Shown one piece after another: positions 4,871 through 51,510 of a DNA stretch of 56,183 nt; position 1 is the first letter of the stretch; the number at the start of each line of letters is the position of its first letter. The notes under the pieces are model-generated. The model was given only the letters and a program-made list of their open reading frames with translations, was not told the origin of the DNA and searched no databases. This DNA comes from Deltaproteobacteria bacterium. Its GTDB lineage: Bacteria; Bdellovibrionota; JACOXK01; 2-02-FULL-40-11. The stretch covers positions 1 through 56,183 of the forward strand of contig JACQJD010000080.1 in the NCBI GenBank assembly GCA_016198185.1, read 5' to 3'. The position numbers and the translations under genes were made by a program.

Positions 4871-4955
4871 CCCATATCTTGAGATCACATCTTCAGGGAG
4901 TTGGAACGATGGCTCTATATCCCCAACCCCTGAAGATGTGATCTCAAGATATGGG
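4871..4955 (+). repeat. Family-1 conserved-loop hairpin, copy 1
   Basis: Inverted repeat CCCATATCTTGAGATCACATCTTCAGGG with perfect 28 bp complement, then GTTGG/CCAAC closing an 18 nt loop AACGATGGCTCTATATCC. Core shared with 51371-51455. Confidence 0.9.
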
Positions 4956-8866: not shown

Positions 8867-8885
8867 GTTTTAAAAATCAAAGTCA

Positions 8886-8950
8886 GCCCACTCCAGAATC
8901 TTTCTGAGGCGGCATTGTATTTTCGAGCCTCAAAGATATTTTGGAGTAGC
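8886..8950 (-). repeat. Family-2 conserved-loop hairpin, copy C (loop motif reads on minus strand)
   Basis: CCACTCCAGAATCTTTCTGAGGC pairs imperfectly with GCCTCAAAGATATTTTGGAGTAGC; loop plus closing stem GGCGGCATTGTATTTTCGAGCC is the reverse-complement form of 23329-23349. Confidence 0.75.
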
Positions 8951-8992
8951 CAAAACTTGAAACAACTTTATGGACAACGCGCTTCAAGCCCT

Positions 8993-18545: not shown

Positions 18546-18630
18546 ATTCAAAAAGTTAATTGAAGCATGGCAACCTCTCTGAGGCTTGAAATGATAGGAA
18601 GGGGCCATGATTCGAATTAACTTTTCAAAT
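18546..18630 (+). repeat. Family-2 conserved-loop hairpin, copy B (degenerate right arm)
   Basis: AGTTAATT.GAA.CATGGC / GCCATGATTCGAATTAACT outer arms; CTCTCTGAGGCTTGAAATG at 18575-18593 matches TTCTCTGTGGCTTGAAATG at 23321-23339. Confidence 0.65.
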
Positions 18631-19085: not shown

Positions 19086-19105
19086 GGATCGCCCTTTAAA
19101 ATAAT

Positions 19106-19235
19106 AGGGCTGTTGAAAATGGCCCAGGGACGCCGCACCTGAAGGTGCGCGGCCCCCCCCTGAGGCGTACTTGTGATGAGTACGTTGAGGCAGACACGAC
19201 GAGCGACGTAGATACGGGCTATTTTGAACAGCCCT
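19106..19235. repeat. Intergenic inverted-repeat (MITE/REP-like) element
   Basis: Termini AGGGCTGTTGAAAATGGCCC / GGGCTATTTTGAACAGCCCT; internal CGCACCTgaAGGTGCG and CGTACTtgtgatgAGTACG hairpins; no transposase. Confidence 0.8.
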
Positions 19236-19261
19236 AAAGTTAGCCTTTAAAAAGGCCGAAA

Positions 19262-23289: not shown

Positions 23290-23388
23290 ATTTACAAAGC
23301 TGAGTTTGGCAGCTTGTGATTTCTCTGTGGCTTGAAATGCAATGCCGCCACAGAGAAATCACAAGCTGCCCGACTGCGCTTTGTAAAT
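23290..23388 (+). repeat. Family-2 conserved-loop hairpin, copy A
   Basis: Outer arms ATTTACAAAGC/GCTTTGTAAAT; 24 bp perfect inner stem GGCAGCTTGTGATTTCTCTGTGGC (23308-23331 with 23347-23370); 15 nt loop TTGAAATGCAATGCC. Confidence 0.9.
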
Positions 23389-34555: not shown

Positions 34556-35047
34556 TTATGGCGAAAGATGAATCGTCATCCCTTGTTGAAAAAGGGTGAG
34601 CGCATTTTGAAAAGAAACACCATGAGAGTCCGAAGTCTGGTTTTTACGAACAATCCACCCGGAACCCATGGGGGTTTGGATTTGAGTTCTCACATAAAAT
34701 GCTTTTAAAATATCTACCTGCTCTTTTGTTTCGAAATCCCATACCATCCCTTTCCATTCTGATGAAGAATGCTTTACCGCATGATTAAAAAAACAACCGA
34801 TGTCATCAAAAAAAATGGTTTGGATATTTCCGTAACGATCGGCCGATTGAACCGCAACTGAAAATCGCAAATCATTCACAATCATCCCACACTGCATGCA
34901 ACTATCCATGCCAAGCCGTGGCAGTTTAAATTGAGCACCCTTCCATGCCCAAACATAAATCCATAAGATATAAATCAATAAAAAAAGAAACCCTGCCCCT
35001 GCTAAAATATAGGGAACTTTTTTATTCTTGAGGACAACTTTACCCAT
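34556..35047 (-). CDS. nosL: NosL-like copper chaperone
   Basis: Membrane anchor; MDSCMQCGMIVNDLRFSVAVQ; nos cluster context. Confidence 0.85.
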   Translation of the reverse strand: MGKVVLKNKKVPYILAGAGFLFLLIYILWIYVWAWKGAQFKLPRLGMDSCMQCGMIVNDLRFSVAVQSADRYGNIQTIFFDDIGCFFNHAVKHSSSEWKGMVWDFETKEQVDILKAFYVRTQIQTPMGSGWIVRKNQTSDSHGVSFQNALTLFQQGMTIHLSP

Positions 35048-35050
35048 CCA

Positions 35051-35866
35051 TTACCATTCTTCTTGTTGTGTAAAAATCCAACAGCCTACCAAGCTAAGGA
35101 CCAGCGTCATCAAACTGAGCCAACCGATTAAATACAAAGGTAAACTTTGACCGATCATGCGATCCAGATACATGCCCGCCGCCCCCAATACTTCTAAGTC
35201 GGTCGCCAACAATCGAATGACGAGAATTTTAAAAACCTCAACCGGATTAAATAAACTCAAAGCCACAATAGCCTCACTTCTGAGTCGCAACAGATAAGCC
35301 GTCCCCATGAGACCCAAATCTCCAATCACCGTCAAAAACAACCACAAAAAAATAGCCGCCCCAGTCGCATGAGCTCTGTTATTTGAAAAAACCGAAATCA
35401 TCATTCCCGTCGCCATACACATTACCGTAAAGAGAAGGGCCAATCCCCACAAAACCAGAAAACTTCTTGCCATGTGAACACCCCAAAACCCAATCACCCC
35501 ACTGGATATGGCAAACCCCAGAGAAAGAGAGGTGGCCAATGCTAAAAAGGATCCCAAAAAACGACCTGCAAAATAATGAACTTTGGTCAGAGGATGACTG
35601 AGAAGATACACCAACACCCCTTCTTCTCGATCTCCCGAAATCAATTGCGCACCCAAAGCAAATCCCATGAGCGGAATAAAAAGCATGAGCACATTGACCA
35701 ACATGGCCGAGAGTTTGTTAAACTGAGAAAAGGTTTCTAAATCTGAACTGCCAATAAATGAAAGTAAAAAAGTTAAAAAGGCAAATCCCAAACTAAAACT
35801 TAAGAGCCAACGATTTCGAATGGCCTCTTTGTAAGACAAAATGGCAACCAACCACACTTCATGCAT
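35051..35866 (-). CDS. nosY: ABC transporter permease NosY
   Basis: ABC-2-type permease with GDREEGVLVYLLSHPLTKVHYFAGRFLG; start moved to MHEVWLVAILSYKEAIRNRW. Confidence 0.86.
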   Translation of the reverse strand: MHEVWLVAILSYKEAIRNRWLLSFSLGFAFLTFLLSFIGSSDLETFSQFNKLSAMLVNVLMLFIPLMGFALGAQLISGDREEGVLVYLLSHPLTKVHYFAGRFLGSFLALATSLSLGFAISSGVIGFWGVHMARSFLVLWGLALLFTVMCMATGMMISVFSNNRAHATGAAIFLWLFLTVIGDLGLMGTAYLLRLRSEAIVALSLFNPVEVFKILVIRLLATDLEVLGAAGMYLDRMIGQSLPLYLIGWLSLMTLVLSLVGCWIFTQQEEW

Positions 35867-36518
35867 AAAAGGGTTCCTTGAGTGAAATGGATTCCACACT
35901 CGGTGCAACCAACCTACCATCTTGAATCTGAATCAAATGATCAGATACCCATTGCACCTCTTCCAAACGATGACTTGAAAGCAAAACCGTTTTCTTTCCT
36001 CGCCATCCTTTAATGATTGAAAGAATCTCTCGCGTGGCCCAAGCGTCCAAGTTGGCTGTCGGCTCATCCAAGAGCACAATCGAAGGATCGGTCATTAAAG
36101 AAAGGGCGATGGAGAGCTTTTGGCGCATCCCTCCCGAAAGCATATGAATTTTTTTGGACACATGCGCCGCTAAACCAAATTCCTCTAAAACAGTATAGGC
36201 CTGTTTTAAATTTACATTTCGCAATCGAGCAAAAAAATGGACTGCTTCCTGAACACGCATTTCAGCCCACAGAGGTAAGTACTGAGGAATATAGCCCATG
36301 GTCTTTTTTATTTCCTGTGCATGATCCTTGAGATTGAGTCCATGAACCTCAATGCTGCCTTCGTAATCCAAAATTCCTAAAATACATTTCAAAAGTGTTG
36401 TTTTACCAGAACCATTGGCCCCAAGAATGCCAACCACTTGTTTGTCGAAAGTTACCGTAATATCTTTTAAAACTTCGTGCGGCCCATAAGACTTATATAA
36501 ATGTGATATTTCAATCAT
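35859..36518 (-). CDS. nosF: ABC transporter ATP-binding protein NosF
   Basis: Walker A GANGSGKTTLLK, LSGGMRQKLSIALSLMTDPSIVLLDEPT; start moved to MIEISHLYKSYG. Confidence 0.9.
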   Translation of the reverse strand: MIEISHLYKSYGPHEVLKDITVTFDKQVVGILGANGSGKTTLLKCILGILDYEGSIEVHGLNLKDHAQEIKKTMGYIPQYLPLWAEMRVQEAVHFFARLRNVNLKQAYTVLEEFGLAAHVSKKIHMLSGGMRQKLSIALSLMTDPSIVLLDEPTANLDAWATREILSIIKGWRGKKTVLLSSHRLEEVQWVSDHLIQIQDGRLVAPSVESISLKEPFYA

Positions 36519-37843
36519 AAATTCATAACGCGATTTAATCCCCATGAAATGAATAGAAAAAAAATAGCCACCCAAAAAATGCTATAGGAACTTGATTGCC
36601 TTTTGATCGAAGTCCAAGGATGCATGCTGGGTGAGGGATCTTGGGCTTTGGAATCTGGTTTGAGCCATGGAATGGCACGGCTCGCAAATTCAAGCGCCAT
36701 CATCGCCGGACCAAATTTAAATAGTTTAAATCCTTCATATCGATCGGTCAGGTCATCGGCCAAGTGAGACAAACGATAGGGGATAGCCCCAACGCCCTGA
36801 CCCTGTATATCGATACCCGTATAATCACTCCAATAATTTAATTCCCACTGTGCTTCAATTCTTTCAGCATGGAGCACGCCCAATGGTTGCCAATTATCGA
36901 TGAAATCATTCTGACGATAATTCGCTCCCGTACTTCTTCCGATGAAAGATACACCCACATCATTGAAAACAATTCGGTTACGCTCAATGAACGCAGGTCG
37001 AATATCCTCTGAAAGAGCACCCATTGGAGAATTATCAAAATAAATGCCCACACGATTGCGAAACAATTCATTGTGATTCATTTTAAACTCATTCGAGTCT
37101 TTCAACGCGATCCCAAAACCACTTGGCCCACGATTATTTAAAACCGTATTTCCGAGAATGCTTAACTTGTGACTGTACATGGCATAAATGCCAACAGAAT
37201 TATTTTCGATGATATTCTCCTGGGCTGAGGATTCATCTGAATACATAAAATGAATTCCATATCGACTGCTCTTCATTTGATTCTGATTGAGAGTGGCGTG
37301 TGGAGAATACCAGACAATGACATCTCTGCCTCTAAAAAATTCATTGCGAACCAATTGTAAAGAAGAACTATACCAAGCCTTGAGAAGATCCCCTCGCTGC
37401 GCCAATGCCAAATCGTAACCAGAAATTTTACAATCTTCAATCTGACTGAAAGGACTATTGAGAAGTTCTATGCCAAAAAGACAATTTTCCACCTTGCTGT
37501 TTCGCAGTTCAAAATGAGCACCGTCTTCTACTTTAATACAACTATCCTCAGCCCCTAAAGTGACACCCGAATTTCGAATGGTGATTCCTGAAATATGCAC
37601 CTGCGGAGCTCGTACTTCCAGAACAGTTCCCCGCAGCTTCCCATCTAAAATCACATCATTCTTTGCAATCAGTGTTAAAGGTTTTTGAATTAAAAAATTT
37701 CCAACGTAAGTGCCGGAAGGAATGAGAACCGTTTCACCCGCTTTGGCATGGTTAATGAGCTCCTGGAAAACAGCTGGTGTCTTACTCTCAACCTCAAAGG
37801 ATAAAAAAATTAAAAGAAGCCCACCGAAACAAACACCTCTCAT
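36515..37843 (-). CDS. nosD: Periplasmic copper-binding/beta-helix protein NosD
   Basis: Signal peptide; right-handed beta-helix repeats (NVILDGKLRGTVLEVRAPQVHISGITIRNSG); C-terminal TM. Confidence 0.9.
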   Translation of the reverse strand: MRGVCFGGLLLIFLSFEVESKTPAVFQELINHAKAGETVLIPSGTYVGNFLIQKPLTLIAKNDVILDGKLRGTVLEVRAPQVHISGITIRNSGVTLGAEDSCIKVEDGAHFELRNSKVENCLFGIELLNSPFSQIEDCKISGYDLALAQRGDLLKAWYSSSLQLVRNEFFRGRDVIVWYSPHATLNQNQMKSSRYGIHFMYSDESSAQENIIENNSVGIYAMYSHKLSILGNTVLNNRGPSGFGIALKDSNEFKMNHNELFRNRVGIYFDNSPMGALSEDIRPAFIERNRIVFNDVGVSFIGRSTGANYRQNDFIDNWQPLGVLHAERIEAQWELNYWSDYTGIDIQGQGVGAIPYRLSHLADDLTDRYEGFKLFKFGPAMMALEFASRAIPWLKPDSKAQDPSPSMHPWTSIKRQSSSYSIFWVAIFFLFISWGLNRVMNL

Positions 37844-38427
37844 GTGGAAGCCTGTGTCAGAAGCTTCTTTTTGATGTTAATGGCCAGCATGTAAATGCCT
37901 GTCGCAAGAAATCCCAACCAAAATCCCACTCCAAACATAGCTTGCGTATGAAATTGACCAATTTTTCCAGCCCCCAACAACCGAGGCATAAACGGTTTAA
38001 TATGCACCGGCGCTTCTGGACTTAAATAATGCCCAAAATAATACATCCAAAAAGTAAAATCACCGATAAATCCAATCAAAAAAAGAATGGGTGGTAAATA
38101 AAAGATAAAATAAATTTTTTTCGAAAAACTTAAAACAATTAAACCTCCTAAAATTAAAAGCCCAACAGCCAGCGCAGCAACTTTCCTTTCCCATTGAGCT
38201 GCATTTTGTAATTTCTCCATCCCAATATAATGATTGAGTAAGTTGACTTCATCGACATCCCCTTCCACATGATCCAAATAAACTTTCATGTGAAGGCCCA
38301 TTGGATATTGCGGAGCTTTGAGATGCATCACCCAATATGGAAAGAAATAGGATCCCGCCAAGATCAATGAAGCCAGAAAGAGCAGAGCATAAAAGGATGG
38401 ATAAGATTTCAACATTTGAAACGTCAT
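37840..38427 (-). CDS. Membrane protein between nosZ and nosD
   Basis: 195 aa, several TM segments, tightly coupled to neighbours. Confidence 0.7.
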   Translation of the reverse strand: MTFQMLKSYPSFYALLFLASLILAGSYFFPYWVMHLKAPQYPMGLHMKVYLDHVEGDVDEVNLLNHYIGMEKLQNAAQWERKVAALAVGLLILGGLIVLSFSKKIYFIFYLPPILFLIGFIGDFTFWMYYFGHYLSPEAPVHIKPFMPRLLGAGKIGQFHTQAMFGVGFWLGFLATGIYMLAINIKKKLLTQAST

Positions 38428-38430
38428 CCC

Positions 38431-40374
38431 TTATTGAACCACCAAATAGCCTGTCATTTCCAAATGAAGCGCCGAACAAAATTCTGTACAATAATATGGG
38501 AAAACACCGGATTGATCGGCTTTAAACTCAACCGTTTCCACTTTTCCGGGTTCCAAAGAAACATTGATATTGTACCGACTGATGGCAAAGCCATGTGTTG
38601 CATCCAGAGCGCGCTCAATACTACTTAAGTGTATTCTCACCAAATCTCCTTTTTTAACGTTAATAAGGTCTGGCGTCAGATGACTTCGAATGGTGGTCAT
38701 ATAAACATCAACCGTATTCCCCTTACGAACAATGCGTTCTTTACCGGCCAAAGTTGCAACGGGACTGGGTTTCATTGTTTCAGCACTCATCCCCAGTGGA
38801 TAAACACTCCACGGTTTTAAACGCTCTGCTTTTACAATTTGAGCGTAATGAGGCTCTGCGTTCGGAATGGGCATATCATATAAAACCTGCATTTTTTCTG
38901 AACCGGTTGTAGAAACAAGCTGAAAGTTTTGAGGCAACAACGGACCCACATTCGGAAAACGATCAATGGCCCATTTGTTTAATGAAACACAATAGCCTTC
39001 ACCTGGCTCGGCTGTATCCCCCTCAACACAAGAAAGGTGCCCGATATTATAATGCACCGAAACTTTATCCAAAAGTTTCCATGCTGCGTTGCCCTTGTGA
39101 TAAGGCTCTCCCAATGACCACTTTGCAATGGCTGAGTCTAAAAATAGACTGGTATAGGCATAGCCTTGTTTATCAAATTGCGTATGCAGCGGCCCTAACC
39201 CCACTTCAATCTGAGCCGCCAAAACAGAATCAAATTTTAAAATGGGAACACCATATTCATCTTTCCCTTGAACCAAGTTCTGAGCTATCGCGTTCTTTAA
39301 TTTATTGAATTCAAATACAGTCACATGAGGGTCTAATTTTCCAGATACAACAATATAATTGCCATCTGGCGAAACATCCACACCATGCGGACTTTTAGGT
39401 TCATGGATAAAATAAAGTAATTTTTCTTGGATGGCTTGTTTAAGTGTAATGAGCTTCATCCCTGCTGTTTTTTGAGTCCCTGCGGACTTGGCCACTTTTT
39501 CTGCTTTTTTCCAATCAATCACATGTAAAAAATCCATATCATTGCGTGAAACGGCCATTTCCAATTGAGGTTTCTGATTCATATTATCTGGAGAGGCTAA
39601 CTCCGTGTTGATCGAATTGATAAACAGATACCCATCACTGACTTTTTTTCCAAGATCCACAATATCTTGCCAATACGGAGGCAGCTCTATTGAAAAACTT
39701 TGTGATAGATTGATTTTTCCTTGTGCGCGATCAAATTTCCAAAAGGTCACAACCCCACGATATTTTTTTTTATAGTCCGTCATCGGGGCATAGCGTGCCC
39801 CCAGTGGCACATTATATTGTGAAGTTTCAATAATATATTCCGTGTTGGGGGTCACAAATGTCCCGCCATGATCATTGACAAATAAAGGATTTTGAAGAAT
39901 TTGCTTGGTCGAAAAATCACGTAGGTCAATGACCGCAACACGCGCATTGGCCTTATCATTCACAAATAAAAATTGACCGTCATAGACACCATTGGTTTCA
40001 GAGAGTGCAGGGTGGTGAAGATCTCCCCACCTGAGCGCTTTACCGCCACCATCTAATATACGTTTGGAATCCAGAGAACCCGTTCCCCAGCCTTGCCAGG
40101 AGTCTGGTGAAAAAACAGGAATCGTTTTAATCAGACGCATAGAAGGAAGACCAATCACCAGAACACTGCCGGCATGTCCCCCCGATGCAAACATGAGGTA
40201 TGGGTCATGTTTCCCAGAGGGCGTATAGGTCATCAGCGCTGCGCGCATATCCGAAGCGGTCAACCCTCTTTTTTTAGCAATGTCCTCTAAAACAGAGGCC
40301 TGACTTTGTGTGGCAATGCATAAAAGCACCAGATATCCACTTAAAATAAATCTGATTCTACTGAGGATCATCAT
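38431..40374 (-). CDS. nosZ: Nitrous-oxide reductase, Sec-type (clade II-like)
   Basis: Beta-propeller signatures (SPHGVDVSPDGNYIVVSGKL); C-terminal CuA motif GVFPYYCTEFCSALHLEMTGYL; N-terminus lacks a twin-arginine motif. Confidence 0.95.
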   Translation of the reverse strand: MMILSRIRFILSGYLVLLCIATQSQASVLEDIAKKRGLTASDMRAALMTYTPSGKHDPYLMFASGGHAGSVLVIGLPSMRLIKTIPVFSPDSWQGWGTGSLDSKRILDGGGKALRWGDLHHPALSETNGVYDGQFLFVNDKANARVAVIDLRDFSTKQILQNPLFVNDHGGTFVTPNTEYIIETSQYNVPLGARYAPMTDYKKKYRGVVTFWKFDRAQGKINLSQSFSIELPPYWQDIVDLGKKVSDGYLFINSINTELASPDNMNQKPQLEMAVSRNDMDFLHVIDWKKAEKVAKSAGTQKTAGMKLITLKQAIQEKLLYFIHEPKSPHGVDVSPDGNYIVVSGKLDPHVTVFEFNKLKNAIAQNLVQGKDEYGVPILKFDSVLAAQIEVGLGPLHTQFDKQGYAYTSLFLDSAIAKWSLGEPYHKGNAAWKLLDKVSVHYNIGHLSCVEGDTAEPGEGYCVSLNKWAIDRFPNVGPLLPQNFQLVSTTGSEKMQVLYDMPIPNAEPHYAQIVKAERLKPWSVYPLGMSAETMKPSPVATLAGKERIVRKGNTVDVYMTTIRSHLTPDLINVKKGDLVRIHLSSIERALDATHGFAISRYNINVSLEPGKVETVEFKADQSGVFPYYCTEFCSALHLEMTGYLVVQ

Positions 40375-40805
40375 TTTTTCTTCTCCTTTTTTAAAGATTC
40401 TTTTGATGTTTCATCGATATAAGATAGAACTTTCCCAATTTCATCATCTGAAAGGGCTAAGTTGGGCATTTTCGTAAAAAACTTTCCAAGCATTTCCATC
40501 GCAATAGGATCTTTCTTGGCAAAGGCCGCATCCGGGTCTTTCAACCAACTCAACAACCATGATTTACTTCGACGCTCAAGAACGCCTTTAAGATCTGGTC
40601 CCGATAAAGTTCCTTGTCCAATGGTGTGACAAGCATTACAGCCCTTGGCCTGGAAAATTTTTTTCCCTGCTTCTATGTCTGCGGCGCTCCTTTTGGTGGA
40701 TTTTTCATCGGCTTTGACAAGGCCCACACCCGCCAAGCTAAAAAACACCACGAGAATCCAAACAGAGCATAAACTGAAACTACATTTTTTGCGTCGTGTC
40801 ATCAC
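40371..40805 (-). CDS. c-type cytochrome
   Basis: Signal peptide; single CNACH haem motif; downstream methionine candidates. Confidence 0.88.
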   Translation of the reverse strand: MMTRRKKCSFSLCSVWILVVFFSLAGVGLVKADEKSTKRSAADIEAGKKIFQAKGCNACHTIGQGTLSGPDLKGVLERRSKSWLLSWLKDPDAAFAKKDPIAMEMLGKFFTKMPNLALSDDEIGKVLSYIDETSKESLKKEKKK

Positions 40806-51308: not shown

Positions 51309-51370
51309 AATAATAAATTTCTTACCTCGCTAGGGATTATTCAAAAAGATAATCCTTAAGTACAGTCTAT

Positions 51371-51455
51371 ACCCATATCGCAGATCTCTCCTTCTAGGAG
51401 TTGGAACGATGGCTCTATATATCCAACCCCAGAAGGAGAGATCTGCGATATGGGT
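51371..51455 (+). repeat. Family-1 conserved-loop hairpin, copy 2
   Basis: ACCCATATCGCAGATCTCTCCTTCT with perfect 25 bp complement; tip GGAGTTGGAACGATGGCTCTATATATCCAACCCC shared with copy 1. Confidence 0.9.
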
Positions 51456-51510
51456 AATAATTGAAAATGCCTTTGGAAGGCTATGTCTATGAGATATTAT
51501 CTTCTTGCCC

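Follow-up and report, generated by a model that had tools for sequence, protein, structure and literature searches.

Which process keeps the two arms of a hairpin paired when its stem differs from copy to copy and its loop is conserved? This question is raised by the hairpin at 23290-23388 of the window, the 56,183-nt stretch analysed here, which is contig C37 of a draft genome (1.77 Mb, 93 contigs, denoted here by C-numbers). Its arms (23290-23331 and 23347-23388) are 42 nt each and 90% complementary, and no longer inverted repeat was found in the window. When folded as RNA the hairpin scores z = -12.5, with none of 200 shuffles as good. An earlier note had described its inner stem, bubble, outer stem and loop, all of which are confirmed (Table 1). 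The note had also seen the loop tip recur twice within the window: the inverted recurrence at 8911-8932 belongs to a real degenerate copy, and the one at 18583-18593 is a fragment rather than an intact third copy, the 18583 site being absent among the covariance-model (R1) matches to this family, hereafter family 2.

Table 1. Hairpin features of the window, in window coordinates
Feature	Coordinates	Strand	Remarks
Outer stem, left side ATTTACAAAGC	23290..23300	+	11 bp, specific to the 23290 locus
Internal bubble, left side	23301..23307	+	7 nt
Inner stem, left arm	23308..23331	+	24 bp perfect; varies among copies
Loop TTGAAATGCAATGCC	23332..23346	+	15 nt, conserved; family-2 consensus TYGAAAKGCAATGCC
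Inner stem, right arm	23347..23370	+	24 bp perfect
Internal bubble, right side	23371..23377	+	7 nt
Outer stem, right side GCTTTGTAAAT	23378..23388	+	11 bp
Degenerate second family-2 copy	8885..8952	-	covariance model, E 2.7e-8
Possible family-2 half-copy	18546..18630	+	left arm and half loop, without the family right arm; weak inverted repeat I10
Family-1 hairpin	4871..4955	+	28-bp perfect stem, 29-nt loop AGTTGGAACGATGGCTCTATATCCCCAAC
Family-1 hairpin, second window copy	51370..51456	+	

Extent and setting of the repeat

A simple loop pattern with three mismatches is found 9 times in the 56-kb window against 6.7 expected, which is not above chance. Genome-wide, the loop with at most two mismatches gave 35 matches as opposed to none for a reversed-pattern control, and a covariance model recovered 62 distinct family-2 loci at E<0.001; searches of both kinds had been proposed in the earlier note, and both returned further copies. 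Family 2 thus amounts to about 60 dispersed copies (55-60). In the 1.727 Mb covered, which is most of the genome and includes the window, 91 hairpins have arms of 18 nt or more; over half of them carry the family-2 loop and about 15 that of a different family (family 1). The density of strong hairpins is 5.3 per 100 kb. A family-level relative (G002) has only 5 in the 346 kb covered, none with a family-2-like loop, and 428 kb of unrelated loci contain 14. Among 28 genomes of relatives, with up to 150 candidates scored per genome, the covariance model had no match at E<=0.1, and the weak matches that turned up singly in members of the class look fortuitous. In GTDB genomes and viral contigs, collections that may omit records of this genome or very near ones, the loop pattern occurred once per contig and its surroundings never formed a comparable hairpin, with no more than 14 of the 24 positions pairing; these single matches likewise look like chance. 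So far as these data show, family 2 is confined to this genome.

The consensus unit runs from a weakly conserved outer arm of ~20 nt (like TTCTAAAGTTATTCGAAGT) through a bubble and a 24-25 bp stem (like GGCCACTGCCAATATCTCTGAGGC) to the loop, which is followed by the right arm, a bubble and the right outer arm (like ACTTCGATTACCTTTAAAG). Its length is roughly 105-110 nt, reaching about 180 nt in one subfamily; the ends of the longer subfamily are GTTGAAAAAGGCC inverted repeats, and in some copies the outer arms are palindromic with locus-specific sequence. The copies have roughly 100-180 bp of homologous sequence in common, beyond which their neighbourhoods are unrelated, which indicates that they spread from common ancestors. 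Most are intergenic, and a few lie inside possibly overcalled ORFs. Counts by gap class, approximate because the gene calls are simple ORF calls, were 29 tandem, 9 convergent and 7 divergent, against 27.0, 7.6 and 10.3 expected from gap length. A preference for a gap class or for gene 3' ends was rejected, as these counts, and the 19 of 29 tandem copies that lie closer to a 3' end, stay near what gap lengths would give. Orientation relative to genes is inconsistent (11 same, 18 opposite).

Several other features were observed in the same genome. In the family-2 copy at C87:18449-18539 the palindrome extends outward into AAACCCAGCTTTAG/CTAAAGCTGGGTTT, so that the element sits in the middle of what looks like a terminator hairpin. 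At C42:14299-14385 a perfect 36-bp hairpin (ATGTCATCCCCCGGCTTGACCGGGGGATCT) is closed by an unrelated loop. A different repeat of ~116 bp, with ends CTGTTSAAAAAGGCCCA, occupies 19105-19236 of the window (132 bp) and recurs elsewhere in the genome (C21:59-174, C85:12963-13078 and C92:4042-4158, for example), where nine two-ended copies are listed; it is sometimes bordered by CTAG on both sides, the end of its C14 copy adjoins half a family-2 loop, and its ends are similar to those of an IS on C90 with a DDE transposase. Positions 34556-40805 of the window hold what appears by eye to be a nitrous-oxide reduction cluster (Nos-like proteins and cytochrome c) in a genome of <2 Mb.

Stem covariation and footprints of arm-to-arm copying

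The inner stem is nearly unlimited in sequence and differs in almost every copy, and even divergent copies carry perfect stems. Between ~93% and 95.5% of stem cells are paired (95.5% across 48 copies). Over these 48 copies covariation reached 0.613; shuffles gave 0.149 +/- 0.010, and slid structures no more than 0.12. Double-changed stem cells numbered 258, against 55 in shuffles. Most stem positions show all four Watson-Crick pair types, and pairing falls at positions 25-26. Mean pairwise divergence is 14% in the loop versus 57% in the left arm, the latter somewhat inflated since arms were compared ungapped. Mismatches of the G.T and A.C types are about equally frequent (26 and 34, p = 0.37), and so there is no sign of selection for RNA wobble pairs.

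Family 1, with 15-17 copies genome-wide and a 29-nt loop (AGTTGGAACGAGGAGTCTATATCTCCAAC and variants), repeats this behaviour. In the 15 copies that passed a stem filter, 94% of stem cells over 22 positions are Watson-Crick paired, most positions show several pair types, and G.T and A.C mismatches are equal within noise (5 and 4). Since the loops of families 1 and 2 are unrelated, the contrast between loop and stem is shared by two families, and the conserved loop with variable stem that the earlier note had read from the window holds in each. The copy at C7:9443-9528 has a 7-nt tandem duplication in its right arm (ATCTGAGATCTGAG).

Comparisons between close copies bear on how such stems change. 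Where flanks can be aligned, stem pairs change at about the rate of flank sites or somewhat faster, mostly in both arms. The C89/C91 pair differs at 11 of 115 flank sites and has three stem changes, all compensated; the C80/C87 pair differs at 9 of 90 flank sites, with 5-6 of 24 positions changed per arm and a 1-bp length change matched in both. In family 1, the C7/C35 pair shows one compensated change within a 145-nt, 96% duplicate. A new right arm is combined with the old left arm in C12, while C18 has the new form in both, so that C12 looks like a resident copy being corrected in place. Five of 53 copies (C32, C84, C22, C24 and C79) have, in place of the bubble, a run of 7-11 that is perfectly reverse-complementary; with flanks shuffled between copies, runs of at least 6 arose in 0.12 copies on average and never in more than 2 copies over 2000 trials. 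In C84 only the right side is family-typical, suggesting which way the tract was copied. Within family 1, the loop flank TTCCAACTCCC of C93:59521-59612 exactly complements the left side of that copy, most other copies reading CTCCAACCCC, and C58 has a similar new complement inside its loop. Taken from paralogues rather than from a single locus, these footprints are those expected from replication template switching. Template switching would also predict loop inversion; an inverted loop gave the better fit in 14 of 50 copies, in most of them by a small margin.

The earlier note had proposed a general process generating or maintaining such hairpins. Maintenance is well supported, because two unrelated families behave alike and both bear footprints of arm copying; generation de novo at each site is unsupported, since the copies share homologous sequence.

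Candidate explanations and known repeat classes

Family 2 is probably a dispersed, non-autonomous palindrome, ERIC-, REPIN- or MITE-like in make-up, the arms of which are homogenised by replication template switching. During replication the stem would extrude as a DNA hairpin and the polymerase could swap its template between the arms, in which case a point change, a small indel or a longer tract arising in one arm would be either erased or copied into the other. The stem may then drift at about the neutral rate and stay paired because of this copying. The loop, which would have no partner to copy from, would be kept by another force, possibly recognition by a mobilising or binding protein or selection for a well-folding loop. 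Most copies still have the bubble, which speaks against this reading unless template switching usually halts at the bubble or is disfavoured by selection. Template switching has been described as maintaining rRNA hairpins, in which arm-to-arm copying gives instantaneous compensatory changes (PMC8794818); the mutational mechanism is the one proposed here, but there it concerns RNA genes and here a dispersed DNA repeat.

Selection alone, with arms mutating independently and compensation favoured because a protein binds the 24-bp stem together with this loop in a functional RNA or DNA hairpin, seems rather unlikely. The constant stem length, constant bubble position and conserved loop do resemble recognition features, and strong selection with fast compensation in a very large population could be an alternative source of the high rates of paired change. 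However, the parity of G.T and A.C mismatches leaves no RNA-strand signal, gap-class placement follows gap length without consistent orientation to genes, and stepwise selection does not readily account for the multi-base erasure of bubbles or for indels matched in both arms. It is unlikely that the conserved loop is the recognition and priming site of a mobile or DNA-processing system by which the stem is synthesised anew from a single arm in each cycle, with both families working in the same mode; if it were so, the element would persist as its loop joined to any 24-bp stem that pairs perfectly.

Dispersed copies, a common unit and a conserved loop would also be expected if the stem were rebuilt at transposition through a single-stranded or hairpin-ended intermediate, new copies starting out perfect and the loop serving as recognition site. 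The perfect stems of divergent copies and the palindromic, locus-specific outer arms speak for this reading too, but we regard it as quite unlikely: C12-type copies seem to be corrected where they reside, no consistent target duplication was recognised by eye (C74 AAAGACA and C87 ATTTA being isolated candidate direct repeats), and a search of the genome (92% complete) for the Y1/HUH REP-type transposase Y1_Tnp (RAYT, PF01797) gave no match, with matches in five control genomes. Chimeric inverted repeats from assembly or amplification, conceivable in a draft of this many contigs, are extremely improbable, as an artefact would not give one conserved loop, a defined unit length and intergenic placement over about 60 loci.

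Among known repeats, REPINs of Pseudomonas fluorescens have conserved outer REP ends and a variable paired middle of set length with compensatory changes (PMC3116915). Like family 2 they are dispersed intergenic palindromes with a covarying paired part, but they keep the outer ends and vary the middle, whereas family 2 keeps the apical loop and varies the stem; a RAYT/REP origin was rejected in view of the negative Y1 transposase search of the 92% complete genome. REP sequences, some families of which are species-specific, are likewise many-copy intergenic hairpins, but with 5-13 bp stems and a conserved GTAG or CGTC tetranucleotide at the foot (PMC3733652) in place of a 24-25 bp stem and a conserved 15-nt loop, and neither foot tag occurs in the family-2 alignment or flanks. 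Sponge mitochondrial hairpin elements are also dispersed, repetitive and intergenic, but show the opposite pattern of conserved stems and variable loops (PMC2800124). ERIC/IRU, RU-1 to RU-3 and other bacterial MITEs are MITE-like intergenic repeats of about 100-170 bp (PMC2759123). Compared without alignment, family 2 resembles ERIC/IRU and RU-1 to RU-3 in size, intergenic site and MITE-like make-up. We know of no description of uncoupled loop and stem conservation for these elements. Of the features by which a bacterial MITE is recognised, family 2 shows a short, non-coding, dispersed unit with many copies in unrelated surroundings. As to terminal inverted repeats shared with a resident transposon, one subfamily ends in GGGCTGTTGAAAAAGGCC, similar to the ends of the C90 IS (GGCTGTCGAAAAAGT, CTTCGACAGCC); most copies are without such ends. 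A composite transposon between two C46 copies was rejected, the intervening gene being by eye asparagine synthase-like and not a transposase.

Other assignments were also considered. Rfam gave no family above its curated threshold; hairpin look-alikes such as mir-7 (36.1 bits against a threshold of 51.8) all fell short of it. An intrinsic terminator was rejected, as no conserved T run follows directly after the stem and the right-flank consensus starts AACt.CGaTtA.cTTTAAag. In comparison with integron attC sites, which have core boxes at the foot of the stem and come in cassette arrays with an IntI, some copies carry wrongly oriented GCCTAAC-like letters at this foot, and family 2 is scattered over the genome. 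Our literature search found no report of repeats that combine a variable stem with a conserved loop.

Implications for covariation analysis

Compensatory base changes are usually held to prove that an RNA structure is under selection. Family 2 joins extreme covariation to footprints of arm copying without an RNA wobble signal, and therefore offers a natural test bed for template switching versus selection. It also calls for caution where non-coding RNAs are sought by covariation, and it adds a class of bacterial repeat in which the rules of evolution differ between loop and stem.
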